From NCBI RefSeq assembly GCF_900090275.1, contig NZ_LT607755.1:3534001-3598000 (forward strand): 64,000 bases of DNA, in the 5' to 3' direction. The stretch comes from Micromonospora zamorensis (GTDB lineage: Bacteria; Actinomycetota; Actinomycetes; Mycobacteriales; Micromonosporaceae). The position numbers and the translations under genes were made by a program. Positions within the stretch are counted from its first letter, which is position 1. Every line of letters starts with the position of its first letter. A model generated the notes under the pieces. The model saw nothing but the letters and a program-made list of their open reading frames with translations. It was not told where the DNA came from and made no database searches. Of the stretch, positions 1-17,232 are shown in pieces.

Positions 1-1845
1 GGTGACCTCACGTTCCTTCTGGCGGCGGCGCAGGTATTCGGCGGCGACCTGGTTGATCGCCTCGTTGAGGAACGCGCCGGAGCCGAGCGCCGGCTCACAG
101 ATGGTCCAGTCCAGCAGTTCGCGGGCCGGGGTGATCGTGTCGTCCTGGTCGAGGCGGTACTTGAGGGCGAGTTGGACGGTGACCTCGGTCAGCGACTGCG
201 GGGTGTAGTAGGAGGCACTGGTCTGCCGGTCCCGGCCGGCAAGCCGGTAGACGAACTGGCCGGGCTGGTAGCTGACCCGGCTGCGGACGCCGGTGTAGGC
301 GTCTTCCTTGTAGACGAAGACACCATCGTCGTACTCGTCGACCTTGGAGGCCGGGATCATCCACGAGCCGTCCTTCGGGTCGCCGTTCTTGGCGACCTCG
401 TAGAGCTGCTCGGTGGCGACGAAACCGGTGTACGACATCAGGCCCTCGTAGACCGCGCCGAGCTGGTTGATGCCGAGCTGGGCGTACGAGATGAAGCCGC
501 CGCGGCGCTTCTTGCCGCCCTTGGTGAGCATCAGCCGGCGCAGCACCTCGTAGAGGACCTTGTTGCGCAGCCGCGTGTCGATCTTCGGAGCGTGCTCGTC
601 GTCCGGGTCACTGCCCGGTTCGGCGATCAGTCGGCCGATGAGCTTGGTCTTCTCGGGCAGGAACAGGTCGGAGCGCATCGGCTCGAAGCGCAGCCCCTCC
701 CCCTCGCTGGCCTTGTCCTCGACCTCCGCGCCGCCACGCGGCCGGTGACCCTCGTTGACCATGCGGAACAGCAGGTTGAGTGACTCGTACAGGTGGGTGC
801 CGTCCTCGGCGGAGGGGGCGAGGCGGCGGGAGACGAGGTCACCGAGGCGGGCGAGGCTGTAGCCCTCGACGTACTGGGGGTCGTTGACCGGCAGCACCCC
901 CAGTTCGGGACGCGCCTCGGCATAGAGCAGGAACAGGATCCGGTAGAGGTAGCGCAGCGACTCCCGGCCCAACTCCTTGGCCAGCTCGTCGAGGTCCATC
1001 ACCTGCTGCGGGTGGTAGCCGGCCCGCCGGATCTGGTCGAGGACCTCGTTGGCGATGAGTTCGACGGAGACCTTCAGGCCCTCGCGGAGTTCGCTGGAGA
1101 CACCGACGGCGTGCTGGCGGGAGCCGGCCACCAGGTCGGCGAGGGGTTCGGTGCCGCCCTCGGCGGGTGGGCGCAGCGAGTCGGCGCCGAAGAGCGCGGC
1201 GACGACGTCGAGTTCCTTGTCGTCGTTGCGGGCGTACGCGGTGTCGAGGCTGACGGCCAGGTAGCGGCCCTCACCCCAGACGGTGCGGTCGGCGAGGGTG
1301 ATCACGCCGCCGCTGAGGATCAGCACGTAGCGGGGCTTCGGACTGTCGGCGGCGAAGAGCAGGGAGGCGAGCTTGGCACCCGTCTCGATGCTCTCGGTGC
1401 TCGACAGGGTGAGCGGGTCGAGCAGGCGACCGGCGTCGTCCGGGTCCTGCGCCGCCTCGGTGTCGACCGCCCAACCGCAGTCCAGCGCGACGATGCCGTG
1501 CGCGGTGGTCAGCTCGGCGTGGGCGACGTGGACCTCGTACTCCTGGCCGTTGCGCTCGACGGTGATGGTCTGCGGCTGCGGGTCGAAGCCGAGCGCCCGC
1601 AGCACGTCCTGGTGCTGCTTGCGCAGCCGCTCCGGGTCGAAGAAGTCGGCGTCGGTCAGCTCGGTCTTGGCGTCGAAGTACTGCCGACGCATGCCGCGCA
1701 GCCCGGCGCGTGGCGTGACCCGGTTGGCCTTCTCCTGCTCGGCCCACTGCTTGAGCAGGCCGCCCTTGAGGGTGGTGGGCAGGATCTCGGCGAGGTAGTG
1801 CGCGGAGAGGTACTCGCCGCGGTTCGTCAGCGACTCGAAACTCAT
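1..1845 (-). CDS. Large adenine-specific DNA methylase (Eco57I/DrmMI/PglX-like), 3' end beyond the window
   Basis: The reading frame is open from the ATG at 1845-1843 to the left edge (615 codons, no stop), so the C-terminal part is missing. A GGAG ribosome site lies about 10 bases before the ATG. The first ~580 residues are an alpha/beta N-terminal region. Near codon 590 the SAM-binding motif I appears as EPALGSGAFLNEA, the form used by class I N6-adenine methylases of restriction or BREX/DISARM type. The catalytic NPPY-type motif would lie off the edge, so activity cannot be judged. It follows the helicase gene by 77 bases and is probably in its operon. The long N-terminus argues against a small Dam-like enzyme. 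It could be a type II Eco57I-like enzyme, a DISARM DrmMI or a BREX PglX; the pairing with an SNF2 helicase favours DISARM-like. Confidence 0.85.
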   Translation of the reverse strand, partial: MSFESLTNRGEYLSAHYLAEILPTTLKGGLLKQWAEQEKANRVTPRAGLRGMRRQYFDAKTELTDADFFDPERLRKQHQDVLRALGFDPQPQTITVERNGQEYEVHVAHAELTTAHGIVALDCGWAVDTEAAQDPDDAGRLLDPLTLSSTESIETGAKLASLLFAADSPKPRYVLILSGGVITLADRTVWGEGRYLAVSLDTAYARNDDKELDVVAALFGADSLRPPAEGGTEPLADLVAGSRQHAVGVSSELREGLKVSVELIANEVLDQIRRAGYHPQQVMDLDELAKELGRESLRYLYRILFLLYAEARPELGVLPVNDPQYVEGYSLARLGDLVSRRLAPSAEDGTHLYESLNLLFRMVNEGHRPRGGAEVEDKASEGEGLRFEPMRSDLFLPEKTKLIGRLIAEPGSDPDDEHAPKIDTRLRNKVLYEVLRRLMLTKGGKKRRGGFISYAQLGINQLGAVYEGLMSYTGFVATEQLYEVAKNGDPKDGSWMIPASKVDEYDDGVFVYKEDAYTGVRSRVSYQPGQFVYRLAGRDRQTSASYYTPQSLTEVTVQLALKYRLDQDDTITPARELLDWTICEPALGSGAFLNEAINQVAAEYLRRRQKEREVT

Positions 1846-1921
1846 GCCGGCACTCCGCTACGCTCCGTGCCGCCCTGAGGCACCATCGCACTCAGCCTGA
1901 TGATTCGCTCGCTACGCTCGC

Positions 1922-4723
1922 TCATGCGGCACTCTCCTGCGACGGTACGAGGACGGCGAGCACCCGTAGTAGCGGGTCGCCGGCGGTTTCCAGGCGGTCG
2001 AGCAGGTCGTTCTGCTCCTGGACGGTGGTGTCGACGCGTTGGCGTCGCTTCTCCCTGTGCGCGCCGGGCAGCTCATCGAGGAGGCTGGCCTGCCGGAAGG
2101 TCCTCAGCTGCTCGCGGTGCCGCTGCAACGGCTCGGCGTTGGCCTCGGCCCACTCGGCGCGCTTGCCCTCCAGATACTGCCGGGCAACCTGGACGGCCTC
2201 CGGCAGCAGATCCTTGAGCGGGTCGATCGCGATGGCCTCGGCGCGGTTGACCATCGCCGGACCGACGTTTGCCTCGCGCAGCACGTCGTCCATCGGTCGG
2301 ATGGTCGGCGACGCGGGCAGGTCGGAGACGGCCATCCACTGGACGACGGTGGGTTGACCGAGGCGGTTGGCGTAGACGCCCTGGATCAGGAACGTCGGCG
2401 CGGTCACGTCGGCGGTGAGCACCGGGGCCTGTTGGCGGCCGAGCCGGATCAGCACCTTGTCGACCAGCCAGTCGACCATCGGGTGCACGTCGCTGAGGAA
2501 GGCGATGTCCGGCCACATCGGGGTCTTGCTCTGCCGGGCCTGGTCGAGTTTGCGCTGGGCGAGCGCGCGGTCGAAGGTGACCTTGAGTCGCAGGTCCTCG
2601 CCCTCCCGGTGTGCCCGCAGGTAGGTGCGGGGCAGGTCGGTGAGCCGGTGCACCAGGTCGTCAGGGGCGAGGAAGGTCATCAGTTCGTCCTCGCGGCGCA
2701 GGTCGATGTGGTCCTCGGGCCGGTCCTCGTAGATCTCGTACAGGGCGGCGTCGACGAAGTCCTGCGTGGAGTCGAAGAGCTTCGGCACCTTTGCGTGGGG
2801 CACGTCCGCCGCCACGGGAGCGGTGCCGACGTCGGCGAAGAGGTCGGCCATCACGTCGACCTCGGCGTGGGCAGCTTCGTAGGACTCGTCCACCGACTTG
2901 CCGGCGAGCAGGTCCCGGACCAGCCGGTCCTCCTCGGCCTTGGCGTCGTACTGGCCCGTCACCGCCTCGACGCTGCCGAGGCTGCGGTGGGCGGTCTCCT
3001 CCCGGTTGAGCAGCTTCTCGGCGACCGTGCGGTCGTCCTTGGCGTCGTCACGGTCGGAGGTGAGGATCAGCGCGCGGAACTGCGGTTGGTGCTTCTGCCC
3101 GTAGCGGTCGATCCGGCCGTTGCGCTGCTCGATCCGGATCAGGCTCCACGGGATGTCGTAGTGGATCAGATGGTGGCACTGCTGGTGCAGGTTGACGCCC
3201 TCAGAGGCGACGTCGCCGGTAAACAGCAACCGGACGTCGCTGCCGGCCAGCTCGAACTCCTGCAGGATCGTCTGCTCGTCCTTGTCAGCCACACCGCCGT
3301 GCAGCACCCGGATCGCGTTCGGCTTGAGGCCGAGCATTCCGGGGACGACCTCGGCGAGCCACTTGATGGTCGGCACCCGCTCAGAGAAGACCACGGCCCG
3401 GGTTGCGCTGTTCTTGCCGACGCCGATCTTTCTCAGCTCGTCGACCAGCCCCTTGAGCTTGCTGGAGTCGGTGTCGGTCATCGCCGAGGTCAGCTCCGCG
3501 AGCCGGTCCAGGGCCGCCCGCTCGGTGCCGGTGGCCTTCTTGCGCCGGTTGGTCACCGTCTCGTGCAAGGCCCGGTGCGAGGACAGAAACGACTTCAACA
3601 AGGTGTACGGGAAGAGTCGGTGCTGCCCCGTGATTGGCTCGTCGGTCCACTTGCCGGCCAACCACACATCGGTCAGTTCGTCGAAGATCTGTTCCTCGAT
3701 CGAGGTCGCCGTGCAGTGCAGGGCCTCGGACGGGCCGCGGTCGGCCCAGCGGTCGCCGATCTGGTCGCGTACCTCCGGGCTGATCTTCGTGCGGCGCAGG
3801 TAGAGGTGCGCGATGTCGCTGGCCTGGTAGTCCTTCTCGTTGGCGATCGCCGCCGGGTCGAGCAGCGAGATCAGCTGCGCGAACGACTCCTTGTCGCCGT
3901 TGTGCGGGGTCGCGCTCGCCAGCAGCAACGCGTCGGTCTTCGCGGCCAGGCGGCGGGCCAGCTCATTGCGCTGGGTGCCCTTGTTGATGAGGTTGTGCGA
4001 CTCGTCGATGACGACGGCATCCCAGGTCGTGGCATCGAGGTGATGGCCGAACTGGCCGGCGTCCTTGAGGGTGTCGACCGAGATGATGGCCCGTTTGAAG
4101 TAGGTGAACGGGTTACGCCCGGCGGGGATCTCCTGCTGGATGCGCTGGATGCCGGTCGAGTCGAGCCGGACCAGCGGAATCGCGAACCTGGTCCAGAGCT
4201 CCCGCTGGAACTGTTCGAGGACCTGCTGCGGCGAGACAACCAGGATGCGCTCACCTCGGCCCCGGCGGATCAGCTCGGCGAGGATCAGCCCGATCTCCAG
4301 GGTCTTACCCAGGCCGACGACGTCAGCGAGCAGGATCCGCGGCCGCAGGCCGGACAGGGCCAGTTCGACGGGTCGCTGCTGGTAGGTCAGCGGGTCGAGC
4401 AGGAACCGGTCGGCGAGGGCCAGCCCGCGCTCGGTGCGGGGCAGTGGAGTACGCCGCAGCACGGCCTCCAGGAAGAGGCGGCTCTGCCGGAACCGCGACG
4501 AGGTGTCCTGGATGAGGTCCGTCTCCTCGGGCACCAGCGGCGTGATGTCCTCAAGCTTGGTGAAGAAGGTCGCCTCGACGTCCTGCACGAACTCGGAGAC
4601 GCCGACCGCCTTCACCATCGTGCCGTCCGCGGTGCCGGTCTTGACGCTGCGGATCAGCCACTCCTCGTCGCGGACGACGATGCGGGAGCCCGGGGCGAAG
4701 GTCGCGGCCTGGGTGGTGGTCAT
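1922..4723 (-). CDS. SNF2-family DEAD/DEAH-like helicase (DrmD-like candidate)
   Basis: A 933-residue superfamily 2 helicase/translocase. Visible motifs are Walker A ADVVGLGKT (residues 133-141), Walker B as DESH (240-243), motif III-like SATPHNG, and the C-terminal RecA lobe with a motif VI-like QRNGRIDRYGQ stretch. Residues 1-60 form a small beta-rich N-terminal region and residues ~650-933 a helical/charged tail. The family hydrolyses ATP to translocate on or remodel double-stranded DNA. The gene starts 13 bases after the kinase stop, and its AGGAAGG ribosome site sits right at that stop, so the two are very likely co-transcribed. The methylase follows. SNF2 helicase plus large adenine methylase is the core pair of DISARM class 1 (DrmD, DrmMI). 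That subtype assignment is inference because further genes lie off the window. Confidence 0.88.
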   Translation of the reverse strand: MTTTQAATFAPGSRIVVRDEEWLIRSVKTGTADGTMVKAVGVSEFVQDVEATFFTKLEDITPLVPEETDLIQDTSSRFRQSRLFLEAVLRRTPLPRTERGLALADRFLLDPLTYQQRPVELALSGLRPRILLADVVGLGKTLEIGLILAELIRRGRGERILVVSPQQVLEQFQRELWTRFAIPLVRLDSTGIQRIQQEIPAGRNPFTYFKRAIISVDTLKDAGQFGHHLDATTWDAVVIDESHNLINKGTQRNELARRLAAKTDALLLASATPHNGDKESFAQLISLLDPAAIANEKDYQASDIAHLYLRRTKISPEVRDQIGDRWADRGPSEALHCTATSIEEQIFDELTDVWLAGKWTDEPITGQHRLFPYTLLKSFLSSHRALHETVTNRRKKATGTERAALDRLAELTSAMTDTDSSKLKGLVDELRKIGVGKNSATRAVVFSERVPTIKWLAEVVPGMLGLKPNAIRVLHGGVADKDEQTILQEFELAGSDVRLLFTGDVASEGVNLHQQCHHLIHYDIPWSLIRIEQRNGRIDRYGQKHQPQFRALILTSDRDDAKDDRTVAEKLLNREETAHRSLGSVEAVTGQYDAKAEEDRLVRDLLAGKSVDESYEAAHAEVDVMADLFADVGTAPVAADVPHAKVPKLFDSTQDFVDAALYEIYEDRPEDHIDLRREDELMTFLAPDDLVHRLTDLPRTYLRAHREGEDLRLKVTFDRALAQRKLDQARQSKTPMWPDIAFLSDVHPMVDWLVDKVLIRLGRQQAPVLTADVTAPTFLIQGVYANRLGQPTVVQWMAVSDLPASPTIRPMDDVLREANVGPAMVNRAEAIAIDPLKDLLPEAVQVARQYLEGKRAEWAEANAEPLQRHREQLRTFRQASLLDELPGAHREKRRQRVDTTVQEQNDLLDRLETAGDPLLRVLAVLVPSQESAA

Positions 4724-4736
4724 CGGTGGTGCCTTC

Positions 4737-5798
4737 CTACAGGGTCGAGCGGCGGGCGTACTGGCGGCGCATCTTGTCGACGAGCCACGTCACATCGGCT
4801 GGCGCGTTGGGCCGCTTGGCGTCGACCTTCGTGGGTGTCGTCTCCGGCACCGGTACGGTGTCCGACTCGATGACCGGCGTGCCCTCCGGGTCCTGTAGCG
4901 GATCATCCAGGTCCGGAGGGACCAGCAGCTCCGTGCCACCGTCGTAGGTGAGTTCGGCGACTTCCTGGCGCAGGCCGTGGACACTCTTGCCGCTGGCAGC
5001 GGTGGCGACCGCGAGCAACCGCGCGCGAACGTCGGTCAGACCGGGTCGCGCCGTGGGGTCGAAGGCGAGCATCGTGCCGAGCAACTGCACCAGCTCGGCC
5101 GGCACCTCGGAGAGGTCGGGAAGGTCGCTGGGCTCGCTGATGCGCAGCAGCAGGTTCCAGGAGTTCGTCGGCGGGTAGAGCCCACGCCCGGTCAGGGCGA
5201 AGACCAGCGTCGCGGCGAGGGCATAGACGTCGACCGCCGGAGTGAGGTCTCGCTCACCCTTGACCTGCTCGGGCGACATGTAGGCGGGAGTGCCGACCAG
5301 GGCGCCCGGCTCGGTCAGGTAGTCGTCCCGCTCGATCAGCACCGCCAGGCCGAAATCGATCAGTTTGGGGCCGTCGGGGCCGAGGATGATGTTCTGCGGC
5401 TTGAGGTCGCGATGCAGCAGCTTGACCTGGTGCACCTTGGCGAGACCTTCGGCGAGCATCGCTCCGGCCATGGCGGCCAACGGCAACGGAAGCGGCCCTC
5501 GTGCGTCGACATGCTGTCGCAGTGTGGCGCCGGGGACGTACTCCACGGCGAGCCAGGCCGGATTCGCGTACGGGTCGGCGCCCTCAAGGCGGGCCACCCG
5601 GGACCCGAAGACCAGCTTGAGGCTGTCGACCTCGGCGGCGAACCGCTCGCGCACCGTCGGCGCCTCAATCAGGTGTTGCTTGATCACCTTTACGGCGACC
5701 CGCTCGGCGGTCGGCGACACCGCGAAGAACACGTCGCCCATACCGCCTGAGCCGAGCGGCCGGACCAACTCGTAGCCGCCGATTCTGCCCAGCGTCAT
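4737..5798 (-). CDS. Cytosolic Hanks-type Ser/Thr protein kinase
   Basis: 353 residues. The kinase domain covers residues ~8-265 with glycine loop GSGGMG (16-21), ATP-binding Lys37 in AVKVIK, catalytic HRDLKPQN (Asp131), DFG (148-150) and the activation-segment end GTPAYMSPE (169-177). All key residues are present, so it should be active. The ~85-residue tail is acidic, Pro/Thr-rich and ends in a short basic helix. There is no transmembrane segment and no PASTA repeat, unlike PknB. GAGGGGGACGA gives a good ribosome site. It is the first gene of an operon with the helicase and methylase. In BREX type 2 a kinase (PglW) accompanies the methylase, and kinases act in some abortive-infection systems, so a signalling role in a defence operon is plausible but inferred. 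Confidence 0.9.
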   Translation of the reverse strand: MTLGRIGGYELVRPLGSGGMGDVFFAVSPTAERVAVKVIKQHLIEAPTVRERFAAEVDSLKLVFGSRVARLEGADPYANPAWLAVEYVPGATLRQHVDARGPLPLPLAAMAGAMLAEGLAKVHQVKLLHRDLKPQNIILGPDGPKLIDFGLAVLIERDDYLTEPGALVGTPAYMSPEQVKGERDLTPAVDVYALAATLVFALTGRGLYPPTNSWNLLLRISEPSDLPDLSEVPAELVQLLGTMLAFDPTARPGLTDVRARLLAVATAASGKSVHGLRQEVAELTYDGGTELLVPPDLDDPLQDPEGTPVIESDTVPVPETTPTKVDAKRPNAPADVTWLVDKMRRQYARRSTL

Positions 5799-5993
5799 TC
5801 GTCCCCCTCACGATGACACCCGCCAAAACTGCTCGTCTGCCCTGTCGGCTTGACGCATGGCGGACGCATGACCGTACAACGTTGAACTTCCGACGAGGAA
5901 GTGTCCGAATGGCGGTTCCTGTGAGACGTTGAATCCAAACTTCAGACGACTCGATGCGCCGCCGTCGGATATCTGACGACACCAGAAAGCTTG

Positions 5994-6404
5994 TCAGCTG
6001 TTCCAGAACATCAGGTCGCGGGCCTGCCGCGAACAAGCCGTCAACTCCGGCACATCCCTCGAAGGGACGACGTAGTCACGCTCGCGGATGAGCGCGAGGA
6101 AATCCGCCGGCAATGCGACGCGGTGACGCCGCACGTAGTAGGCGAGGTCCTTCCGCCAGAGCCAGTCACCGTCGGTCATAACGGTCGAGCCGTTCATCAC
6201 CTGCCGGGTCGAGTCGAAGGCGTCGTTGGCGACGTCCATCACGTCGATGAGGATGTGTCCCGAGTTCAAATAGCTGACCACCTGGGTGAGGTCGGGCAGT
6301 TCCTCGTCGGCGACGCTGTCGAAGATGCTCTCCTGCGGCTCGGCGGAGCGGACCGGTCCGAATTCGCGGAACATTCCCGCTGCCTTCAACTGACCGCCGC
6401 TCAT
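5994..6404 (-). CDS. Hypothetical protein, candidate immunity protein for the upstream toxin
   Basis: 136 residues if it starts at the ATG at 6404, which shares its A with the toxin stop (TGATG), a classic translational-coupling junction. A GTG at 6437 would give 11 more residues inside the toxin gene and is less likely. The product is soluble, mixed alpha/beta and acidic in its first half, with no signal peptide and no membrane segment. I do not recognise a named family. Its position directly after a polymorphic-toxin-like gene, overlapping by one base, is the standard place for the immunity gene. Function is inferred from context only. Confidence 0.7.
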   Translation of the reverse strand: MSGGQLKAAGMFREFGPVRSAEPQESIFDSVADEELPDLTQVVSYLNSGHILIDVMDVANDAFDSTRQVMNGSTVMTDGDWLWRKDLAYYVRRHRVALPADFLALIRERDYVVPSRDVPELTACSRQARDLMFWNS

Positions 6405-7786
6405 CAACGCCCACCATTCGGGTAGAAGGTCTTCCACACTCCGTCGCCCCGGATCACCGGGGTCTGCCCCACGGGACCATACCGGTCGACACCGACCGCG
6501 TCCGTCGGCGCTGTCACCGGCACCCCGAGGGCGTCGGCGACCTGTTGCGCCGCTGGTGGCACGCCGGCTTCGGGGGCGACGGTGCCGGTGTGACAGGAGA
6601 CCAGCCGCACCGGGCCACCGTCGTAGTGCGGGTTGGCGCGGATGGCGTCGGCGATCTGCTGTGGGTGAGTGAAGTTGGCAGGGTGGTCGGCACCGTCAGC
6701 GCCCACGAGGCCCGGCCGGAACAGACCGGTGCGTTCGCCGTGCACGACCACATCGTGATGGCCGGGGATCGGTGCCACGGCGTCAAAGTTGCGCATCGTT
6801 GCGCTGTCGTAGCCGATCGCCGTGCTGTTCGGGCGGTGGTAGACCGGATCTCCCGCCGGGAGGTTCGCATCCGGCGGTGGCGGCGTCTGCGGATGTGCGG
6901 AGGGGTCCTCCCAATCCGACCGGCGCCCCATCGAATCCAGGTCCGGCTCTCCCCAGGCCCCTGGGCGCCCGCCGGGTGTGGCGCCGTTCGTCGGGCTGGC
7001 CGGGTCGGCCCGGGCCGCCCGCCGCAGGAGGCCGTTCAGCTCGTCGATCAGGTCGCCCAGGCGGCTGAGCAGCGGGGCCAGCCGACGAAGGCTGCTGATC
7101 AGGGCGCTGATCAACCTGCCGATCCGCGCCGCCCACTTGGCCACCAGGCTGCTCACCTGGGAGATCACCAACGGAGTCGCGATGCCCAGCGTCGCGCCGG
7201 CCTCGGCCAGCCAGAGCGGCAGCCGGACCGCCAGCACCGACACGAAGTCCGCGATCAGGTCCCGGACCAACTCGCGGACCAGCGCCACCAGCAGCCCCGC
7301 GCCCTCCACCAGCGAAGCGATGCCGCCGGCAGCTCGCGCAATGCCTTCCATCGCCCGCACCTGGCCCGACATGTGCGCCCGGTAGGCGCGCGCCGAGGCG
7401 CCATCCCACTCGGCGAGCTGCGACGAAATGGCCGCCTGCAGATCAGCCGCCGCGTCGGTGCTCTGCTTCGCGACGTTGCGCCACGTGGCCGCGTACGCGT
7501 CGATCTGATCCGGGTCGCCGGCCAGCCAGTCCAGCGCGTCCGAGAGCGGCTTGACGTGTTCAAGCAACCAGCCGACGCCCCAACTGACCAGCGAGCCGAG
7601 CGGGTCGAGCACGGTGGCCAACGCGTCCATCGAGGTGGCGACACCACCGATCGTCGAGTCGATCCAGCTTCCCGACTCGATGCCTGCCACGGTGTCCGTG
7701 ACGTCCTCCACCAACCCGAGCCCCGTGTACCACTGGGTCGAGTCATGGCGCTCCACCACCAGCGGGTTGGCCGCCATGTCGGTCAC
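6404..7786 (-). CDS. WXG-type polymorphic toxin with His/Cys (CPD/caspase-like) C-terminal domain
   Basis: 460 residues from a GTG start that overlaps the previous stop by 4 bases (GTGA). Residues ~85-160 are a helical WXG100/ESX-type region with the turn motif WDG at 127-129. Residues ~160-255 are long hydrophobic/amphipathic helices. A Pro/Gly-rich linker spans 260-325 and a compact C-terminal domain 325-460. That domain has DVVVHG (His349) on one strand and VRLVSCHTG (Cys398) on another, the arrangement of the catalytic dyad in clan CD caspase-like and CPD/C80 proteases. There is no Sec signal, fitting type VII-type export. Upstream EspC-like and YbaB-like genes and the downstream candidate immunity gene support a secreted antibacterial toxin. 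The protease assignment is an inference from motif spacing; another toxin fold is possible. Confidence 0.78.
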   Translation of the reverse strand: MTDMAANPLVVERHDSTQWYTGLGLVEDVTDTVAGIESGSWIDSTIGGVATSMDALATVLDPLGSLVSWGVGWLLEHVKPLSDALDWLAGDPDQIDAYAATWRNVAKQSTDAAADLQAAISSQLAEWDGASARAYRAHMSGQVRAMEGIARAAGGIASLVEGAGLLVALVRELVRDLIADFVSVLAVRLPLWLAEAGATLGIATPLVISQVSSLVAKWAARIGRLISALISSLRRLAPLLSRLGDLIDELNGLLRRAARADPASPTNGATPGGRPGAWGEPDLDSMGRRSDWEDPSAHPQTPPPPDANLPAGDPVYHRPNSTAIGYDSATMRNFDAVAPIPGHHDVVVHGERTGLFRPGLVGADGADHPANFTHPQQIADAIRANPHYDGGPVRLVSCHTGTVAPEAGVPPAAQQVADALGVPVTAPTDAVGVDRYGPVGQTPVIRGDGVWKTFYPNGGR

Positions 7787-8115
7787 AGCGGCAGTTCCAA
7801 CCGGCCGCCACTGTCGGCAAGTCGTCGTGCGCTCGCCGCGTCGGCGGCTTCGGTCGCGGCAGCAACCGCCCGCAGGTTGGCTGCCGCCTCACGCAGTGCC
7901 GTGGCGGATCCTCCGAGCGCTGTCACCGCCCTGTCCGCCACCGGGTCGATCAACCGAGGCAGGAACCCGCAGATCTGCCCGTACGCCTCAGCGCCCATCT
8001 GCACGTACGCCGCCGCTCCACGAGCGGCTTCCATGCTGTCGGCGATGTCGTTGACCGTCGCGGCGTGCCGGATCACTGCCGCCACCGACATCTGCATCTC
8101 GGCGTCACCAGCCAT
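7783..8115 (-). CDS. EspC-like / type VII secretion target protein
   Basis: 110 residues from the ATG at 8115, which overlaps the preceding YbaB-like gene by 11 bases; a longer start at 8151 is possible. The product is almost entirely alpha-helical, Ala-rich and without Cys pairs, with a central AYGQICGFLP turn. This resembles the EspC/ESX-secretion-associated family that accompanies WXG-type toxins in actinomycetes. It probably forms a helical-hairpin partner or adaptor for the downstream toxin, with which it overlaps by 4 bases. Family assignment is by pattern only. Confidence 0.7.
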   Translation of the reverse strand: MAGDAEMQMSVAAVIRHAATVNDIADSMEAARGAAAYVQMGAEAYGQICGFLPRLIDPVADRAVTALGGSATALREAAANLRAVAAATEAADAASARRLADSGGRLELPL

Positions 8116-8524
8116 TTCCGGCGTCCCGCTCCCACCGATCGGGCTGCTCATCGGCGGGTTTGGGGAACCGCCTAGCGAAGGTGTCGGTGACCGCCCGCCC
8201 TGTCTCCGAGTCGGCGCCGACGGTGTCGTGCACCGCAATGCTCACCTGCTCGGTCAACCCGGCCTGTGCACGGGCGATCGCGGCCATGATGATGCTGGCA
8301 AGTTCGGCGCCGGGTATCCGCTGAACGCGGTCGTCCAACCGAAGGTCTGTCAGCGCCCCCGAGGCAGCGACTGTCACGCGCACCGCACCGTTTGCGCCGA
8401 CCGCCGACGACGCGATGGTCGCGACCCGGTCCGACAGATCGGTGGCAGCCTCAGCTCGCGCCGACAGCTGGGCTGCCCAGGCATGCATCAACTCCTGTGT
8501 CGCGTCCGGATCTTGACTTAGCAA
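8105..8524 (-). CDS. YbaB/EbfC-like protein at the head of the toxin operon
   Basis: About 139 residues. The frame could open with GTG at 8533, but a strong GGGGGAGG ribosome site abuts that GTG and is spaced 8 bases from the TTG at 8524, so I take TTG as the start. An N-terminal helix (residues ~5-40) is followed by VRVTVAASGALTDLRL, the beta-hairpin typical of YbaB/EbfC-fold proteins, then a helix and a charged tail. Classical YbaB binds DNA. In actinomycetes divergent copies sit at the front of ESX/WXG toxin operons, where they are more likely secretion-associated. It is the first gene of a four-gene overlapping operon. Confidence 0.75.
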   Translation of the reverse strand: MLSQDPDATQELMHAWAAQLSARAEAATDLSDRVATIASSAVGANGAVRVTVAASGALTDLRLDDRVQRIPGAELASIIMAAIARAQAGLTEQVSIAVHDTVGADSETGRAVTDTFARRFPKPADEQPDRWERDAGNGW

Positions 8525-8720
8525 GTCCGCCACCTCCCCCGCGACGCATCTCGGCGCCGTCGTTCGACCGACGCCTTCCCGCTCAGCCCTCCACTGTGCA
8601 CCACGACCGCGATGGACGCTGCCCCTCAGCCGTCACGTGCAGAGTCGGCAGGAACCGGCCAGGGGCCCCGAACGGTGACTCAGCACGCCGGACCGTGTGG
8701 TTGGCGGCCAGCACGGCCCC

Positions 8721-10646
8721 TCATCGGACGGCGTCGTCCGGCCGCACGACCCCCCGCGCCAACCCGTCAGCGGTGAGTTGCACCAGCTCCGCCCCCAAAA
8801 CCGCAGTCTCCCGCACCGCCGCCTCAAACGCCTCAAGCCGCCGAAACGCTGCCCCGTAAGCCCGCTGCTCGTCCAGCGGCAACCGCCGCACCTGAGCCCG
8901 CCGGATGTCGAGCCGCATCGTCCCGGACAGGCTCGACGACTGCTTCTCGTTCGCCGACGTCCGCAGTTGACCGGCCAGGAACCACGGATCCAACGCCGCC
9001 GGATTGGGCCGCAACAGGTACAGGTTGCGCCCCAGCAGCGCCCCCTCGGCGGTGACCACCCGGGCAGTGAGTTGCCGCGCGATCATCGGCACCACCACGT
9101 CCCCGACAGCAAGCGGGATCTCCTGCCCGAACCGGTCGTCGACCCGTCCGGACGCCTCCACACCGGCGAGCACGTCCGGCACGGTGAGCACCGGCGGCCC
9201 GTCGGGCGCGGGTGCGGACGTGCCGGCGCGGACCGGGCCGATCAGTTGAAGGGCCCCGGTCTTCGCCAGCTCCCCCACCGTGAGGAAGAGGCCGTCCGCC
9301 CCGTCGGGAGCGGGTGTGACCTGCGGTAGCAGCGCCGGCAGCTCGCCGACGATGGCGGCCAGCCGTTCTCTGGTGCGTACCAGATGCTCTCCCGTTGCCT
9401 CGCCCACGACGGCGGGTTGCCGGCGCGCGGGGGTGAGGTCGACGTCCTCGTCGAGCAGTTCGATGACCGGGACCGCGCGGGCGAACCCGGCCTCCTCGAC
9501 GTCGCCGTCCGATGCGGCGGCGAAGGCCCGCCACGCATTCAGCACGCGCGGCGCGGTGTCGGCCAGGTCACCGCCGGCGGCGTCGATCAGCAGCGCCCGC
9601 GCTGGTGGCGGCGCGTCGGTCGCGGCGCGTCGCAGCACCCACAGGTGCAGGGGTACGCCGTGCGGCGCCGCCACCCCCGGTGGAAGCGCGATGACGGCAC
9701 GCAGGTGGCCTCGGCGCAGCAGTTCGCCGCGGATCCGTTTGCCGGCGCGCCGGCTGGCGACAGTAGGTGGCATCAGCAGGACGGCGTGTCCGCCGACCCG
9801 CAGGTGGGCCAGGGCGTGTTGCGCCCAGGCCAGCTCCGGTTCGGTACGGGGTGTGGTGCCGACGATCCAGCGGGGGTCGTGGCCGAGTTCCTCGTCGCCC
9901 CAGTTGGTGGCGCCGAACGGTGGGTGGCAGACGACGGCGTCGACGGTTCGGCCGGCAAAGGCGTCGGTGCGCAGCGAGTCCCCCGTGCTCACCTCGCCGG
10001 ACACGTCGTGCAGTGCCAGCCACAGGCTGGCGAGTTTGGCCAGGTCAGGATCGAGTTCCTGCCCGTACACGGAGGTGCTGCCGGCGCGGACGGCGGCCCG
10101 AAGGATGGCGCCGGAGCCGGCGGCCGGGTCGAGCACTGAGCCGCCGCCGACGCTGGCGAGCCCGATCATCAGGTCGGCGAGGTCGTCGGGGGTGGCGAAG
10201 GGGCGGCCGGGGCCTGGTGCGGAGAACCGCTGCCACAGCTCGTCGAACGCGCCCTGCGCGCCCAGCTCGTCGGCGAGGGCGTCGACGTCGGGCAGGAGTG
10301 GGGCGAGCTGTGCATCGGGGTGGCCGCTGCGGGAGCCGCGCTGTCGGGCCAGCAGGAAAGCGCCGACCGCGGCGAGACCGGCGGCCGGGGAGTCGCTGGC
10401 CGCGGCGAGGTGGCGCCAGAGCCGGTCGGCGGTGGCGAGCTCGGGGAGCTTGCCCTGGGTGCGTAGCCACTGCTCGACCTGGATCAGGTCGAACTCGGGG
10501 CTCGCCGTCGTCCCGCCCACCGGGGCGGGGAAGTCGGGATGCCGTTTACGCCAGTTGCTGACCGCAGCGCGACCGACGCCGGCGAGCCGGGCGATTTCCG
10601 CTGCCGTGATGGTCGGGTTCTCCTGCACGCCGAAAGTCTCGCACAT
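8721..10646 (-). CDS. HTH-N6-adenine methylase-TRD fusion, HsdM-like, with altered motif IV
   Basis: 641 residues. Residues 12-40 are a helix-turn-helix (AAEIARLAGVGRAAVSNWRK). The methylase core follows with motif I DPAAGSG at 173-179. The catalytic motif IV, expected as (N/D/S)PPF/Y, reads CHPPF (240-244) with His at the key position. The C-terminal ~200 residues resemble half of a HsdS specificity subunit (LTVPDVLAG..., QSSSLSGTMRLDIRR). The architecture is like a type I M-S fusion lacking a nuclease. No hsdR gene is nearby. The start is the ATG at 10646 without a clear ribosome site; a GTG six codons on is possible. It diverges from the lipoprotein gene across a perfect inverted repeat that its own HTH might bind. 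It may be an orphan methylase or a DNA-binding regulator that has lost catalysis. Confidence 0.85.
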   Translation of the reverse strand: MCETFGVQENPTITAAEIARLAGVGRAAVSNWRKRHPDFPAPVGGTTASPEFDLIQVEQWLRTQGKLPELATADRLWRHLAAASDSPAAGLAAVGAFLLARQRGSRSGHPDAQLAPLLPDVDALADELGAQGAFDELWQRFSAPGPGRPFATPDDLADLMIGLASVGGGSVLDPAAGSGAILRAAVRAGSTSVYGQELDPDLAKLASLWLALHDVSGEVSTGDSLRTDAFAGRTVDAVVCHPPFGATNWGDEELGHDPRWIVGTTPRTEPELAWAQHALAHLRVGGHAVLLMPPTVASRRAGKRIRGELLRRGHLRAVIALPPGVAAPHGVPLHLWVLRRAATDAPPPARALLIDAAGGDLADTAPRVLNAWRAFAAASDGDVEEAGFARAVPVIELLDEDVDLTPARRQPAVVGEATGEHLVRTRERLAAIVGELPALLPQVTPAPDGADGLFLTVGELAKTGALQLIGPVRAGTSAPAPDGPPVLTVPDVLAGVEASGRVDDRFGQEIPLAVGDVVVPMIARQLTARVVTAEGALLGRNLYLLRPNPAALDPWFLAGQLRTSANEKQSSSLSGTMRLDIRRAQVRRLPLDEQRAYGAAFRRLEAFEAAVRETAVLGAELVQLTADGLARGVVRPDDAVR

Positions 10647-10675
10647 CTGTCAAGCACGAGATTGTCTGTTGACAG
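10647..10675. promoter_or_regulatory. Inverted repeat, candidate operator between divergent genes
   Basis: CTGTCAA (10647-10653) and TTGACAG (10669-10675) form a perfect 7-base inverted repeat with a 15-base spacer, lying directly against the start of the HTH-methylase gene. The right arm contains the -35 hexamer of the plus-strand promoter. Binding by the HTH domain encoded next door (autoregulation) is inference. Confidence 0.5.
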
Positions 10676-10697
10676 TGTTGTCGGACGATGCTCTTAT
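10669..10697 (+). promoter_or_regulatory. Sigma-70-type promoter for the DUF4352 lipoprotein gene
   Basis: A perfect -35 hexamer TTGACA (10669-10674), a 17-base spacer and TCTTAT (10692-10697, four of six matches to TATAAT). The gene starts 34 bases downstream behind an AGGAGG ribosome site. Confidence 0.6.
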
Positions 10698-10730
10698 TGA
10701 CCCCGCAACGCTCACTTCAGGAGGACAACG

Positions 10731-11300
10731 ATGCGCAAGACCACGACTCTCGCTCTGATCGCCACCGGTCTCATCGCCCTGGGCTGCGGCTCCGGTGCCG
10801 CCGACAAGGCGAGCAGCTCCAGCGGCGACGAGGGCGGCACCAAGGCCGGCACTTCCACCAGCGACAAGGGCGACGCCAAGGGCGAGGAGAAGCCGGCGGC
10901 GACCGCCAAGATCGGCCAGCCGGCCCGCGACGGCAAGTTCGAGTTCACGGTGAAGTCCGCCAAGTGCGGCGTCGCCAAGATCGGCAACGACATGCTCGGC
11001 CAGAAGGCGCAGGGCCAGTTCTGCCTGGTCACGGTCAACGTGAAGAACATCGGCAAGGAAGCGCAGATGTTCGACGGCAGCAGCCAGAAGGCGTACGCGG
11101 CCGACGGCACCGAGTATTCCGCCGACTCCGGCGCGGCCATCTACGCCAACAAGAACGCCGAGACGTTCCTCAACGACATCAACCCCGGCAACCAGGTCAA
11201 CGGCGTCGTGGTCTTCGACATCCCGAAGAACGTCAAGCTCACCAAGCTCGAGCTGCACGACTCGATGTTCTCCGGCGGCGTCGACGTCACCCTCGGCTGA
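10731..11300 (+). CDS. DUF4352-type lipoprotein
   Basis: 189 residues. A lipoprotein signal peptide ends in LIALGC with Cys19 as the lipidation site. A low-complexity Ser/Gly/Lys linker runs over residues 22-58 and an immunoglobulin-like beta domain over ~60-189. The pattern (DGKFEFTVKSAKCG, then VTVNVKNIGKEAQMF) is that of DUF4352 (telomeric-repeat-factor-like) extracellular domains. It should be anchored on the outer face of the membrane; no enzymatic function is known for the family. It has its own promoter and AGGAGG ribosome site and is followed by a strong hairpin terminator. Confidence 0.85.
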   Translation: MRKTTTLALIATGLIALGCGSGAADKASSSSGDEGGTKAGTSTSDKGDAKGEEKPAATAKIGQPARDGKFEFTVKSAKCGVAKIGNDMLGQKAQGQFCLVTVNVKNIGKEAQMFDGSSQKAYAADGTEYSADSGAAIYANKNAETFLNDINPGNQVNGVVVFDIPKNVKLTKLELHDSMFSGGVDVTLG

Positions 11301-11315
11301 CCTCTCTCACCGGAC

Positions 11316-11344
11316 CCGGGGCGGGCAACCACCGCCCGCCCCGG
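11316..11344 (+). terminator. Hairpin terminator after the DUF4352 gene
   Basis: A perfect 11-bp G+C stem (CCGGGGCGGGC / GCCCGCCCCGG) with a 7-base loop, 15 bases after the stop. There is no U-tract, as is common in high-G+C actinomycetes. Confidence 0.75.
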
Positions 11345-11382
11345 CTGTTCACAGCCCACCTGTTCACAGAAGGAGCCTCGCC

Positions 11383-12099
11383 ATGACCGACCCGACCACC
11401 CCGAAGCCGCCCGACCCGCCCACCGAGCCGCCGCAGCCCTCGATGTCGCCTGTAGCCAGCCCGACTCCCGGGGCCAACCTGGTCGCCGGCCCTGGCACCG
11501 CCACCCCCGAGAAGCGGTCCAACGTGCGAGCCTGGGCGGTCGGCGGCACCGCACTCGCCGTCATTCTCTTGTGTGGCGGCGCTGCCATCGGCATGTTCAA
11601 CGGTGACGAACCGAAGACGACCGCCAGTGCCACCAGCTCGCCTGCGGCAACTCCTACCAGCGCGACGCCGACGCCGGTCGCCCCCACTACTGCGGCCCCG
11701 ACCAGCGCCATCCCGAGCCCTACCAAGGCTGCACCGCTGCCGAAGCCGAAGCCGCCGTCGTACAAGACGCTGACCGAACGGCAGTGGAAGCTGATCGCCA
11801 AGGACCCGGACGGCTACCTGGGGAAGACCTACGTCGTCTACGGGCGGGTCACCCAGTTCGATGCGGCCACCGGCACCGACAGCTTCCGCGCGGACGTCGC
11901 CCACCGCCGAATGGCCGAAGACTACGACTACGAGACCAACACCATCCTGAACGGGTCCGAATCCGATCTCGACAACCTCGTCGAGGACGACATCTTCCGC
12001 GCCAACGTGACGGTCCTCGGCTCCTTCAGCTACGACACCCAGACCGGCGGCGAGACCACTGTCGCGCTGCTCCAGGTCGACTCCATCAAGGTCCTCTGA
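11383..12099 (+). CDS. Membrane-anchored protein with OB-like extracellular domain
   Basis: 238 residues. A Pro-rich cytoplasmic N-terminus (1-45) is followed by one transmembrane helix (~48-70), a Thr/Ala/Pro-rich wall-spanning linker (75-122) and a C-terminal domain (125-238). The last begins LTERQWKLIAKDPDGYLGK and contains YVVYGRVTQFD and ANVTVLGSF, consistent with a small OB-fold of the kind found in surface proteins. There is no catalytic motif. GAAGGAG gives a good ribosome site. The gene is preceded by the terminator of the lipoprotein gene and followed 27 bases later by the RNase H-like gene. Function is unknown. Confidence 0.8.
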   Translation: MTDPTTPKPPDPPTEPPQPSMSPVASPTPGANLVAGPGTATPEKRSNVRAWAVGGTALAVILLCGGAAIGMFNGDEPKTTASATSSPAATPTSATPTPVAPTTAAPTSAIPSPTKAAPLPKPKPPSYKTLTERQWKLIAKDPDGYLGKTYVVYGRVTQFDAATGTDSFRADVAHRRMAEDYDYETNTILNGSESDLDNLVEDDIFRANVTVLGSFSYDTQTGGETTVALLQVDSIKVL

Positions 12100-12126
12100 A
12101 CTCGCCCTGAGACGTGAGGAGGCGTC

Positions 12127-12945
12127 GTGCGCCCCGATGAGTTCCTCCGCGCCCTGACCCAACTTCCCCCGCCACTGCACGAGCGCGTCCTCATCCTTCG
12201 CCCCTACACCCGCGCCACACGTTGCGACGACTGCCAGGGCATCGGTGATGCCGTCCACCTCGCCCTCACCGCCGCCCACTATGACGAGCTGACCTCGGCC
12301 GGCGAACTGCTCGACGCAGCCGAGCGGCTCGCTGCCGAGCACGCCGAGCATGTCCCGCCGCGCCCGGACCAGCAGCGCGGGCGCGGCCAGGTAGTCCGCT
12401 GGGCGCAGGCGTCCGGCCCGCTGGTGGCCGCAACCGACGCCAGTTGGAAGGGCCGCGCCGGTGGCATCGGGTACGTCGTCAGCGATGGCCGTTACGGTCT
12501 GCTCGGGCGGGGCACCGGCCGGCTCGACCCGACCGGCAGATCCCGGGTGCTCGTCGACGAACTGCGCGCGGTCGACTATCTGCTCACCGGGTATGACGAG
12601 GTGCCAGTGGGCATGAGCGTGCTGCTGGACAGCCTGACGGCCGTGCGGTATCTGCACCGCTGGCAGGGCGGCGAAACCGATGCGATGCCCGCCGGATACA
12701 ACCTGCGGCAGCGCCGCTGGTCGGATCAACCGACCCTGGTCCGGCTCGCCGACCAGGTGGCCAACCGACCCGACCTGACCTTCGCGCACGTGAAGGGCCA
12801 CAGCGGCCACCCGCTCAACGAGGCTGCCGACGGACTGTGTCACATGGCCCGCCGCCGGCGGGAGGAGTCCTTCGACCTGCGTCCTCGGGCGCACGCCCTG
12901 GTCGACGCGTTCCTGCACGACTGGCACGCGAACGCCACGGTCTGA
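12127..12945 (+). CDS. RNase H-like protein
   Basis: 272 residues from a GTG start behind GAGGAGG. Residues ~97-245 show the RNase HI catalytic set in order: Asp104 (ATDASWKG), Glu145 (VDELRAV), Asp168 (LLDSLTAV), and His225 and Asp235 in VKGHSGHPLNEAAD. All four acidic residues are kept, so RNA:DNA hybrid cleavage is likely. Residues 1-95 are an extra N-terminal region with a CxxC pair (33/36) and helices, absent from classical RnhA (~155 residues). The gene sits 92 bases before an SMC-like ATPase gene. It may be an accessory RNase H rather than the main housekeeping copy. Confidence 0.85.
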   Translation: MRPDEFLRALTQLPPPLHERVLILRPYTRATRCDDCQGIGDAVHLALTAAHYDELTSAGELLDAAERLAAEHAEHVPPRPDQQRGRGQVVRWAQASGPLVAATDASWKGRAGGIGYVVSDGRYGLLGRGTGRLDPTGRSRVLVDELRAVDYLLTGYDEVPVGMSVLLDSLTAVRYLHRWQGGETDAMPAGYNLRQRRWSDQPTLVRLADQVANRPDLTFAHVKGHSGHPLNEAADGLCHMARRRREESFDLRPRAHALVDAFLHDWHANATV

Positions 12946-13037
12946 CCCGCGCAACCGCGGTAGCCCGCACATCCACCGCTCCCCCGGGCGGGCCGACAAG
13001 TCGTCGGTCCGCGGACACCACACGCCTGGAGACCACC

Positions 13038-15491: not shown

Positions 15492-15904
15492 CCGCGCCGA
15501 CGCCACAGCGCTGCCTGGCGGCGGCCGACCAGTTGCTGCGCGGCACCGGTCTGCTCGGCGGCGCCGCGGTCACCGCGGGCTGGTGGCCGCGGGCTGGTGG
15601 CCGCGGGCCTGCGCCTGCCTGATCCGGCTCGCCCTCGAAGGCGGCATCGACGGCTACTGGCGGCGGGTCAAGCCGACCGTGGCGGCGTGCCGGCAGGGTC
15701 GCGAAGCAGTTGATGCTGCGCGGCCGGCTCGGCCCGGGTGCCGAAACCGCCCGTCGGGTGGCCTTCGCCTGGGCGACGTTGTCCGCCGCCACGCACCACC
15801 ACTGCTACGAGCTGGCCCCCACGGCGGCGGAGCTGCGGCGGCTGCACACCGAGGTGAGCACCCTGCTCGAACAACTGGAGCCCACGACGCGCGCCACGAA
15901 CTGA
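15488..15904 (+). pseudogene. Small helical partner of the ATPase, broken by two frameshifts
   Basis: Translation starts at a GTG overlapping the ATPase stop. The frame reads VTAPTPQRCLAAADQLL, hits a 14-base tandem duplication at 15575-15602 (net shift), continues in a second frame (ACACLIRLALEGG...YWRRVKP), and near 15690 shifts again to a third frame that ends QLEPTTRATN at 15904. Removing one copy of the duplication restores the first join exactly. The intact product would be a ~135-residue all-helical protein with a THHHCYELAPT segment. Either the gene is truly decayed or the assembly has errors. I do not recognise a named family; its overlap with the ATPase implies it normally works with it. 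Confidence 0.7.
15575..15602 (+). repeat. 14-base tandem duplication causing a frameshift
   Basis: GCGGGCTGGTGGCC occurs at 15575-15588 and again at 15589-15602, followed by a partial third copy (GCGGGC). Fourteen is not a multiple of three, so the duplication breaks the host frame. Confidence 0.9.
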
Positions 15905-15940
15905 CCTCCGACAGACGACACGACCAAGAGGGATGCCACC

Positions 15941-16333
15941 TTGTCCTACCAGCCCGGATACGACCCGACCCGACCGCAGCCGCCGATCTCGGCCGTGCCC
16001 GCCGGCCCCTACCCTCCGACCCACTACCCGCCGCTGCTGCCCCAGATGGTCGTACAGGCCGCGCCGTCGTCCGACCTCGCCACCGCGTCGATGGTCCTCG
16101 GCATTCTCGGTTTCCTCGGCGGCTGGTGCCTGTTCGGACTGCCGTGCGTCCTCGCCGTCGTCCTCGGCCACATCGGTCTGCACGAGACCCGGGACGGCAG
16201 GAAGTCCGGGCGGGGCATGGCTGTGACGGGTCTGATCCTCGGGTACGTCTTCGTCGGCCCGATGATCGCGCTCACGGTCCTGATCTTCTTTGGCGGTGTC
16301 ATCGGCGCCGCCGCCCCGATGGCGAACCCGTGA
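15941..16333 (+). CDS. DUF4190-type membrane protein
   Basis: 130 residues from a TTG start; an AGAGGG ribosome site precedes it and no ATG/GTG in this frame fits better. A Pro/Tyr-rich cytoplasmic N-terminus (1-40) is followed by two hydrophobic segments (~47-75 and ~95-125) separated by a short polar stretch HIGLHETRDGRKSGRGMAV. This helix / Gly-His-I / charged turn / helix layout is the DUF4190 family pattern. These small proteins of actinomycetes have no established function. Confidence 0.8.
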   Translation: MSYQPGYDPTRPQPPISAVPAGPYPPTHYPPLLPQMVVQAAPSSDLATASMVLGILGFLGGWCLFGLPCVLAVVLGHIGLHETRDGRKSGRGMAVTGLILGYVFVGPMIALTVLIFFGGVIGAAAPMANP

Positions 16334-16500
16334 GCACGGAAGCCACCGCCAGCCGAGGCGACGTCCCAACCCGCGCGTGTGATCTGTTCAGTCATTCGCG
16401 TGTGGACACTACGCGCGATGAGGTACCGCTCCGGATGAGCCGGGGTGACCACGATGACACCTACTGTGATGCTCCCGTTATCGATCATGAAGGTTGTGAG

Positions 16501-17232
16501 ATGGCGCCTGAGGCTGAGGAACCCCAGAACGAAGATCCCACACGCGACGACCGCGACGCCCTCGATGGACCGGTTCCGGAAGCGGCCGTACGTGGGCAGA
16601 GGGTCCTTGACGTCCTGGACAAGGCAATCACCCTCCAGAGCCCACTGGTGCGAAAGAACATCGCCCGGGCCCGCCAACGAAACCCAGAGGCGACACCAGC
16701 GGAGGTGATCCGCAATCTGGAGCGGATGTACGTCAGCGCCCTGGCCGGGACGGGCGCTGCGGTTGGAGGAGCTGCAGCTGCGCCGGGCGTCGGCACGGGG
16801 GTCGCACTGGCACTGTCGGCCGGCGAAGTCCTCTCGTCACTTCAGCTGAGCGCCCTCTTCGCGCTCTCGGTCGCCGAAGTCCACGGAGTCCGCATGGACG
16901 AGGTCGAGCGCCGCCGAACGATCGTCATGGGGATCATGCTCGGCGGATCCGGATCCGCCACCATCACCAAGGTCGCCGAGCGCACCGGGCAACACTGGGG
17001 ACGTCAGGTTGTCGCCAAGGTGCCCATCGAAACGCTGCGTCAGATCAACAAGGTCCTGGGGAAGCACTTCATCACGAAGTACGGGACCAAGCAGGGAATC
17101 ATCGTTCTCGGTCGAGCGGCGCCGTTCGGCATCGGCGCTGTGATTGGTGGTGGCGCCAACGCTGCCCTCGCCAGTTTGGCTGTGCGGGCCAGTCGTCGCG
17201 CATTTGGCCCACCTCCGCCGTCCTGGCCATGA
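16501..17232 (+). CDS. Hypothetical helical, Gly/Ala-rich protein
   Basis: 243 residues from the ATG at 16501 (AAGG upstream). The same frame is open far upstream through two other genes but has no start signals there. The N-terminal 35 residues are very acidic. Residues 50-120 are helical (KNIARARQRNPEATPAEVI). A hydrophobic Gly/Ala-rich segment (GAAVGGAAAAPGVGTGVAL) follows, and near the end there is a conserved-looking KYGTKQGIIVLGRAAPFGIG stretch. The hydrophobic stretches may be peripheral or re-entrant membrane helices. I recognise the look of a conserved actinomycete hypothetical but no functional family. No operon partners are evident. Confidence 0.7.
   Translation: MAPEAEEPQNEDPTRDDRDALDGPVPEAAVRGQRVLDVLDKAITLQSPLVRKNIARARQRNPEATPAEVIRNLERMYVSALAGTGAAVGGAAAAPGVGTGVALALSAGEVLSSLQLSALFALSVAEVHGVRMDEVERRRTIVMGIMLGGSGSATITKVAERTGQHWGRQVVAKVPIETLRQINKVLGKHFITKYGTKQGIIVLGRAAPFGIGAVIGGGANAALASLAVRASRRAFGPPPPSWP

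Follow-up and report, generated by a model that had tools for sequence, protein, structure and literature searches.

Introduction

ARMADA is an anti-phage system that, as published, consists of three helicases and one methylase (PMC12458937, available text). In the Type II order given there by Bell et al., an SNF2/BrxHII-like helicase is followed by a PglX-like methylase, a YprA-like helicase and a GajB-like UvrD helicase. The experiments described in the same text show a direct, non-abortive defence in E. coli that needs all four Arm proteins. The text also predicts a C-terminal nuclease (Vsr-type) in ArmC, and it names a DUF1998 region in ArmC and a RelE-like domain at the N-terminus of ArmD. 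Class 1 DISARM, with the gene set given in the available text of PMC9142583, likewise has an SNF2 helicase followed by an adenine methylase. BREX Type 2 with PglW and MADS with MAD6 share with the locus studied here a Ser/Thr kinase that is coupled to methylation-based defence.

Here we analyse a locus at the left edge of a 64,000-nucleotide stretch of Micromonospora zamorensis DNA, called the window, which comprises bases 3534001-3598000 of a single 7.1-Mb contig (G000:C1). The original prediction for this locus was a DISARM-like helicase/methylase defence operon with a kinase. It was right in seeing a related defence operon with a kinase as a member, while the locus is neither DISARM nor BREX. 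It is likely an actinobacterial, kinase-headed form of the ARMADA Type II anti-phage system that is split by cargo, with a kinase that is tethered by its tail and phosphorylates a member of the complex. Gene content and order, the one-to-one similarity to E. coli ARMADA, the constant lead kinase and the swaps in ArmB are established at the level of sequence. ARMADA itself is already known. The kinase-headed form appears to be new relative to the main text of PMC12458937, in which the word 'kinase' occurs 0 times (supplements lie outside this scope). No report of a kinase in ARMADA was found in the literature covered, which includes the journals in part, and the available text of PMC12904381 mentions both 'kinase' and ARMADA, apart from each other.

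The window locus encodes the four Arm proteins

As had been predicted, the left edge carries a Hanks kinase, an SNF2 helicase 13 bases behind it and a large adenine methylase, all encoded on the minus strand. The methylase runs over the edge; in the full contig it is a single open frame of 1637 aa that terminates 3068 bases to the left of the window. Further genes had been expected off the window, and these are armC and armD of ARMADA Type II, located 18-26 kb left of the window edge. The genes of the system are, with positions in the window or on the contig:

4737..5798, minus strand: lead Hanks-type Ser/Thr kinase, 353 aa (Pfam Pkinase 5.1e-38; C-terminal tail WLVDKMRRQYARRSTL)
1922..4723, minus strand: armA, RapA/BrxHII-like SNF2 helicase, 933 aa (SNF2-rel_dom and Helicase_C; match to E. 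coli plasmid ArmA)
1..1845, minus strand: armB, PglX-like adenine methyltransferase, codons 1-615 of 1637 in the window (ends at G000:C1:3530932)
G000:C1:3516155-3530931, left of the window: insert of ~14.8 kb at the armB-armC junction
G000:C1:3509729-3516154, minus strand, left of the window: armC, 2141 aa
G000:C1:3507549-3509732, minus strand, left of the window: armD, 727 aa
G000:C1:3506225-3507499, minus strand, left of the window: trailing kinase, 424 aa

Each of the four proteins of the window strain has its counterpart, at the same place in the order, in an E. coli plasmid array (30-36% identity): ArmA with 33% over residues 8-929 (blastp), ArmB with 34% over residues 1-853 (first half only), ArmC with 30% over residues 1-2140 and ArmD with 36% over residues 20-718. 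One cyanobacterial and one alphaproteobacterial plasmid array likewise match ArmA to ArmD in order. The window locus thus has the same four genes as ARMADA Type II, in the published order and with one-to-one similarity to the E. coli plasmid. It differs from the published system by its lead kinase and by the cargo that splits the operon. Some kinase-headed loci differ further, in that an N6-methylase precedes the array or a second kinase trails it.

The domain content of the single proteins agrees with this assignment. For a structure model of ArmA (predicted template modelling score, pTM, 0.76), the best PDB match was RapA (6bog, E 4.1e-30, template modelling score 0.35). ArmC is a YprA/DruE-like protein with DEAD, Helicase_C and MZB domains (PADLOC DruE 1.4e-95). 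Six residues in its C-terminus (R93, D95, G114, H118, D129 and R133) are invariant in 13 homologues. ArmD is a UvrD helicase with a match to GajB (1.7e-26), and its gene overlaps the end of armC. Its N-terminus gave 12 weak PDB matches, including the toxin-like 2khe (E 0.009) and 1wmi (0.051) and RelE3 3bpq (0.59), and a Pfam match to ParE_like below the cut-off.

Relatives were collected in two sets. For the named loci, one genome per species (GTDB 220) was scanned with a helicase alignment and the best 80 of 288 stretches were taken, with a helicase identity of 55-98%. Micromonospora holds the closest relatives of the window helicase. The named loci also come from Dactylosporangium, Actinomadura, Streptosporangium, Nonomuraea, Nocardiopsis, Streptomyces, Frankia, Nocardia and Glycomyces. 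Family counts refer to 200 Micromonosporaceae genomes with 48 near-complete armA places. The two sets overlap; for example, L117-L122, L131 and L097 are strains already among the named loci. Three fragmentary armA matches (G432, G516:C104, G514) and the armC row of G516:C104 were left out of the counts of armA, armC and armD spacing, as were second armD copies in G590, G534 and G537. Split matches were entered as single places (armC of G475 and G565, armD of G414 and G472).

A cargo insert splits the array in the window strain

In the family set, armC lies downstream of armA on the same contig and strand at 42 of 48 places (one of them a contig-end fragment) and on another contig at the other 6. 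The spacing from armA to armC is 4.7-5.5 kb in 36 of these 42. This leaves just enough room for armB, so that armC stands directly behind it. The spacing is 10.8-20.8 kb in 6 of the 42, including the window strain with 19.8 kb. Among the named loci, where the downstream stretch is ~5 kb in most, a relative of armC was seen in 29 of 80, within 200 bp in 15 of these 29, and 51 were uninformative. armD follows armC in 48 of 49 armC rows of the family set. Because armC follows armB directly in relatives, the window locus is read as an interrupted four-gene array, split by ~14.8 kb of cargo between armB and armC. The idea that kinase, helicase and methylase form a complete system was dropped once ArmC had been found behind armB in relatives.

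The strand flips just behind armB, where a DUF397/DUF5753 pair is encoded, and the insert contains DUF5753/DUF397, AAA_28, a DDE transposase, HNH_2, NB-ARC/TPR and a RAMA+CBS protein, among others. A DUF5753 regulator was seen near armB in several loci. Insertions recur at the armB-armC junction: 10.8-20.8 kb lie between armA and armC in six family loci, and gaps of ~1-4 kb were seen in 14 named loci.

The insert raises the question whether the window locus is decaying, with armC and armD split off and possibly silent. The 36 of 42 same-contig loci that have no such gap and the transposase within the insert speak for decay. On the other hand, both kinase frames and all four arm frames are open in the window strain, armC and armD likewise have open frames in each of the other five loci whose spacing is 10.8-20.8 kb, and the recognition half of ArmB keeps diversifying. 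We regard decay as unlikely.

A lead kinase with a conserved tail heads the array

Gene order in relatives had been named as a check of the kinase. The order kinase, helicase and methylase recurs in 78 of 80 named loci, which makes the arrangement more than chance, and the kinase is not absent from these homologous loci. The methylase is directly downstream of the helicase in all 80. A kinase is directly upstream of armA in 78, that is, in 78 of 78 loci with upstream sequence; in L075 and L089 the contig starts at the helicase or at most 275 bases from it. One of the 78 kinase frames is broken (L064). All 26 family loci that were fetched and score above 985 bits have the lead kinase as well, in addition to the window, and so do both Streptomyces plasmids examined. 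In Micromonospora (L010-L021), 13-18 bp separate kinase and helicase. The catalytic residues of the window kinase are intact, and HRDxKPxN is kept in 77 of 78 named lead kinases. Hydropathy revealed no membrane segment in the window kinase, nor behind the kinase domain in 77 named lead kinases.

At the C-terminus of the lead kinases, a variable, often proline-rich linker leads to a short pattern of the form hydrophobic ... hydrophobic-(R)-x-x-Tyr-(Ala). In its final form the pattern occurs in 76 of 78 named lead kinases and in 28 of 29 family lead kinases; L064 was left out of the tail count. It is missing from all 20 control kinases, which come from the fetched loci, and is present in 0.8% of shuffled tails. 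This conserved tail is perhaps a docking motif. In the kinase tree, from which L049 was left out as it lacks HRDxKP, 28 of 29 lead kinases are grouped with a support of 84/87. Lead kinases also cluster apart from other kinases (2 changes, compared with 15.1 in shuffles). The best tree places L106 outside, so a single clade of lead kinases is not proven; such a clade was not rejected by the approximately unbiased test (p 0.281).

Outside this group, the 2.5 kb in front of armA contain no kinase in any of the 13 outlying loci, two of which (L092 and L093) score above 985 bits. In six of the 13, genes resembling sigma-70, DrmA and DrmB stand in front; four have the candidate pair PDC-M02A/B, one has a TIR-domain gene and two were left unassigned. 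The candidate defence pair PDC-M02A/B, a DUF4365 protein and its partner, stands ahead of armA-armB in L109, L113, L114 and L116. From the 32 plasmid records with an ArmA-like match, 10 were examined. Only the two Streptomyces records contained sequence coding for a kinase, and none was found in the E. coli, cyanobacterial and alphaproteobacterial loci. A WYL gene precedes three alphaproteobacterial loci and a DUF1998 gene precedes the Tsukamurella locus.

The kinase could also belong to ARMADA in another way, as a self-contained second line that does not regulate the complex and, once the main machine has failed, phosphorylates host proteins as a suicide or shut-off effector. Back-up effector kinases have been proposed for DndF-type systems (PMC10853773, available text), and the lead kinase matches models of the stand-alone PD-T4-6 defence kinases. 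Against this, the kinase comes first in the array with 13-bp or overlapping spacing in many loci, its tail resembles a docking element, and the kinase-less ARMADA of E. coli is reported as non-abortive in the available text of PMC12458937. It seems improbable that the kinase is such an effector.

ArmB swaps its recognition half

ArmB (1637 aa) matches Eco57I-type methylases, and its S-adenosylmethionine motif region and NPPW are conserved in 70 rows. No nuclease domain was found in ArmB by Pfam. A structure model of residues 1-1060 was poor (pTM 0.45), and the fold search with it gave no match at E <= 0.001. Between the window strain and M. lupini (L021), identity is 97.5% in ArmA and 95.7% in ArmB to residue 1030, and 53.0% in the remainder. 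Over 66 Micromonospora pairs, the mean identities are 89.4 for ArmA, 87.9 for the front of ArmB and 53.7 for its remainder. DNA similarity ends just past the NPPW motif (residue 1022) and resumes near residue 1583. L010 and L021 are 87.4% identical in the recognition half. By these comparisons, the C-terminal recognition half of ArmB, from about residue 1022, is swapped wholesale between close relatives. Whole-domain swaps are a mark of changing DNA specificity. It is thus most likely that ArmB marks self DNA.

The best PADLOC model for ArmB is a Type IIG enzyme (8.9e-284), and kinases are abundant in actinobacteria. One could thus think of a lone Type IIG-like restriction-modification pair next to an unrelated kinase. 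This is very improbable, as the kinase and armA to armD recur together in order across families, and the lead kinases cluster apart and have a common tail.

Relation to DISARM and BREX

The helicase and methylase had been taken as the start of class 1 DISARM (drmD, drmMI). This assignment failed on the helicase score and on the partner genes. ArmA reaches 308 bits with the NCBIfam DrmD model, which has a cut-off of 610. Among 345 genomes of the class, 24 had true DrmD proteins, which reached 1185-1407 bits, and the other listed matches scored at most 382; that scan was a loose first look, in which the window helicase is not listed and the low-scoring rows are incomplete. An extension to the left had been suggested as a way to find drmA and drmB. 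In tblastn searches with DrmA-like and DrmB-like queries, no match was found in the window or in 34 kb to its left, nor in L007 or L008, and armC and armD were found left of the window instead. There was no PLD domain among the neighbours given to Pfam, where no search was aimed at drmC itself. A canonical DISARM locus gave only short domain matches with the window proteins, and its helicase and methylase are only distant relatives of those in the window. In the helicase tree, DrmD, two Hma-type helicases and Type I-like helicases lie outside the ArmA family, on long branches.

A class 1 DISARM, or a DISARM remnant with an added kinase, is hardly tenable: PADLOC matches the helicase to DrmD (9.7e-85) and the methylase to DrmMI (6.2e-47), and in a sister group the helicase gene is preceded by DrmA-like and DrmB-like genes, but the drmA/drmB searches were negative, the DrmD score is too low, DrmD branches outside, and ArmA is 31% identical to canonical DrmD over 176 aa, compared with 33% to E. 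coli ArmA over nearly its full length.

Membership in BREX Type 2 was also rejected. The window kinase is below the cut-offs for BREX PglW (43 compared with 990 bits) and MADS MAD6 (106 compared with 460 bits), and no PglZ-like or BrxC-like gene was found among the neighbours tested. A DUF499/Hma reading, taken from the available text of PMC12839542, was given up as well; no DUF499 was found among the neighbours tested, and the two Hma-type helicases are outside in the tree.

Some loci appear to be hybrids of DISARM and ARMADA. In L095, L108, L110, L111, L112 and L115, DrmA-like and DrmB-like genes immediately precede armA-armB, and armC and armD follow. These six Micromonosporaceae loci also carry a sigma-70-like gene, and L168 on a Tsukamurella plasmid is a hybrid by annotation. 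L077 is the only one of the 80 named loci with a weak DrmA-like match (30%) and a sigma-like match in its flank. In L132, one of five canonical DISARM loci fetched, two kinases lie upstream of DrmD (5141-7547, oriented).

Further kinases in ARMADA loci

The trailing kinase of the window strain (424 aa) lies behind armD and has TPR-like repeats. Relatives were found behind armD in 8 of 16 stretches with room (L145-L149, L155, L161, L162). In G521-type strains the array is unsplit, and the N6-methylase, the lead kinase, armA to armD and the second kinase adjoin one another. Another kinase is found in the Streptomyces locus L137, as the N-terminal part of a fusion with a YprA/DUF1998-type helicase (10188-16514, minus strand). 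L137 resembles ARMADA Type I, an assignment made by gene order only. It shares the YprA helicase, SNF2 helicase, PglX-like methylase and a kinase with the window system, and differs in that the kinase-YprA fusion gene comes first. The best 120 of 585 relatives of the L137 N-terminus have kinase and DEAD domains, with MZB in 119; these counts cover the proteins, not their genomic surroundings. Among the matches listed, fused-kinase relatives are mostly from Streptomyces and Kitasatospora. In the kinase tree, the fused kinase falls among the trailing kinases (support 92/93, two control kinases included) and not among the lead kinases, which hints at more than one acquisition of kinases by ARMADA.

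A possible mechanism

The following course of action would be consistent with our data. ArmB would methylate a strain-specific adenine site and thereby mark self DNA. ArmA, ArmC and ArmD would translocate on unmarked phage DNA and destroy it. The C-terminal tail of the soluble lead kinase would hold it to the Arm complex, where it would phosphorylate one of the members, tentatively ArmA, and thereby either activate the machine or keep it in check. Comparable roles, with other wiring, might fall to the second kinase downstream of armD and to the kinase-YprA fusion seen in Type I-like loci. Phosphorylation control of actinobacterial ARMADA may be deduced from the place, the tail and the recurrence of the kinase. 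The constant lead kinase with its shared tail, together with the second kinase and the kinase-YprA fusion, points to signalling control of a DNA-destroying machine. Actinobacteria may switch ARMADA by phosphorylation. The locus also widens the link between Hanks kinases and methylation-based defence seen with PglW and MAD6.

ArmA S584 is a candidate phosphosite, which we keep as a lead only. Position 584 is Ser or Thr in 99 of 101 ArmA proteins from kinase-headed loci and Asp or Glu in 21 of 21 kinase-less ones. L106, whose kinase is tail-less and groups elsewhere, has Glu. One could imagine a phosphorylation-gated machine in which the tail-docked lead kinase phosphorylates S584, with kinase-less systems permanently acidic at this site; we find this rather doubtful. 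L107, the other exception among the 101, has the tail and carries Ala, and L025 and L026, which miss the pattern, keep Ser/Thr. Residue 584 precedes a predicted helix (585-589), and Ser, Thr and Asp are all good helix caps. Switches from Ser/Thr to acidic residues made up 2 of 23 class switches in ArmA and 1 of 24 in ArmB, which is no enrichment. Additionally, the kinase-headed lineage is essentially one clade.

Several observations weigh against a tail-tethered kinase acting on a working ARMADA machine. For the same reason of common descent, the 78 of 78 loci with a kinase do not equal 78 independent observations. The tail pattern was derived from the sequences that were counted and was twice widened after misses: its first form was found in 58 of 78 named and 16 of 29 family lead kinases, its second in 71 of 78 named ones. 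The fair test of the fitted pattern thus consists of the controls and the deeper family loci only. The lead position in L106 is held by a different, tail-less kinase, and L092 (1240 bits) and L093 (1183 bits), deep loci with high-scoring helicases, are without a kinase. The trailing kinase is absent from the other half of the loci with room (L150, L151, L153, L154, L157-L159, L164), and the kinase fusion occurs in one of four Type I-like loci fetched, with none in L138, L141 and L143. The kinase could regulate transcription or a target outside the complex, and the insert may uncouple armC and armD from their promoter in the window strain. Pfam and PDB sequence searches gave no nuclease match for the ArmC C-terminus. 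Finally, phage protection was shown for E. coli ARMADA, and the kinase-headed form is described here from its genes.

Neighbouring genes and the armA-armB junction

Three further features of the window lie next to or within the array:

8721..10646, minus strand: helix-turn-helix and N6-adenine methylase, 641 aa (possible accessory gene)
5994..8533, minus strand: WXG100-like cassette (judged to be inserted, outside the system)
1842..1925, minus strand: 27-codon mini-open reading frame between armA and armB (from sequence; 80-bp insert)

In 22 of 80 named loci, a relative of the N6-methylase precedes the lead kinase in the same orientation, 104-584 bp away in 20 of them. Relatives also occur in genomes without ARMADA. 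It is possible that the gene is an accessory of the system. The WXG100-like cassette separates N6-methylase and kinase in the window, L010 and L019, and we judge it to be an insertion and not part of the system.

armB starts 76 bp behind armA in the window strain. The mini-open reading frame in between has ATGA overlaps both with the armA stop and with the armB start, and by these overlaps at both ends translational coupling of armA and armB may be kept. A structured RNA in this gap was considered and rejected (fold z-score 0.06). In L010-L021, armA and armB overlap by ATGA, directly so in L010 and L021. Relatives of the 80-bp insert, 68-90 bp long and with 77-91% identity, were found at four other places in the genome.

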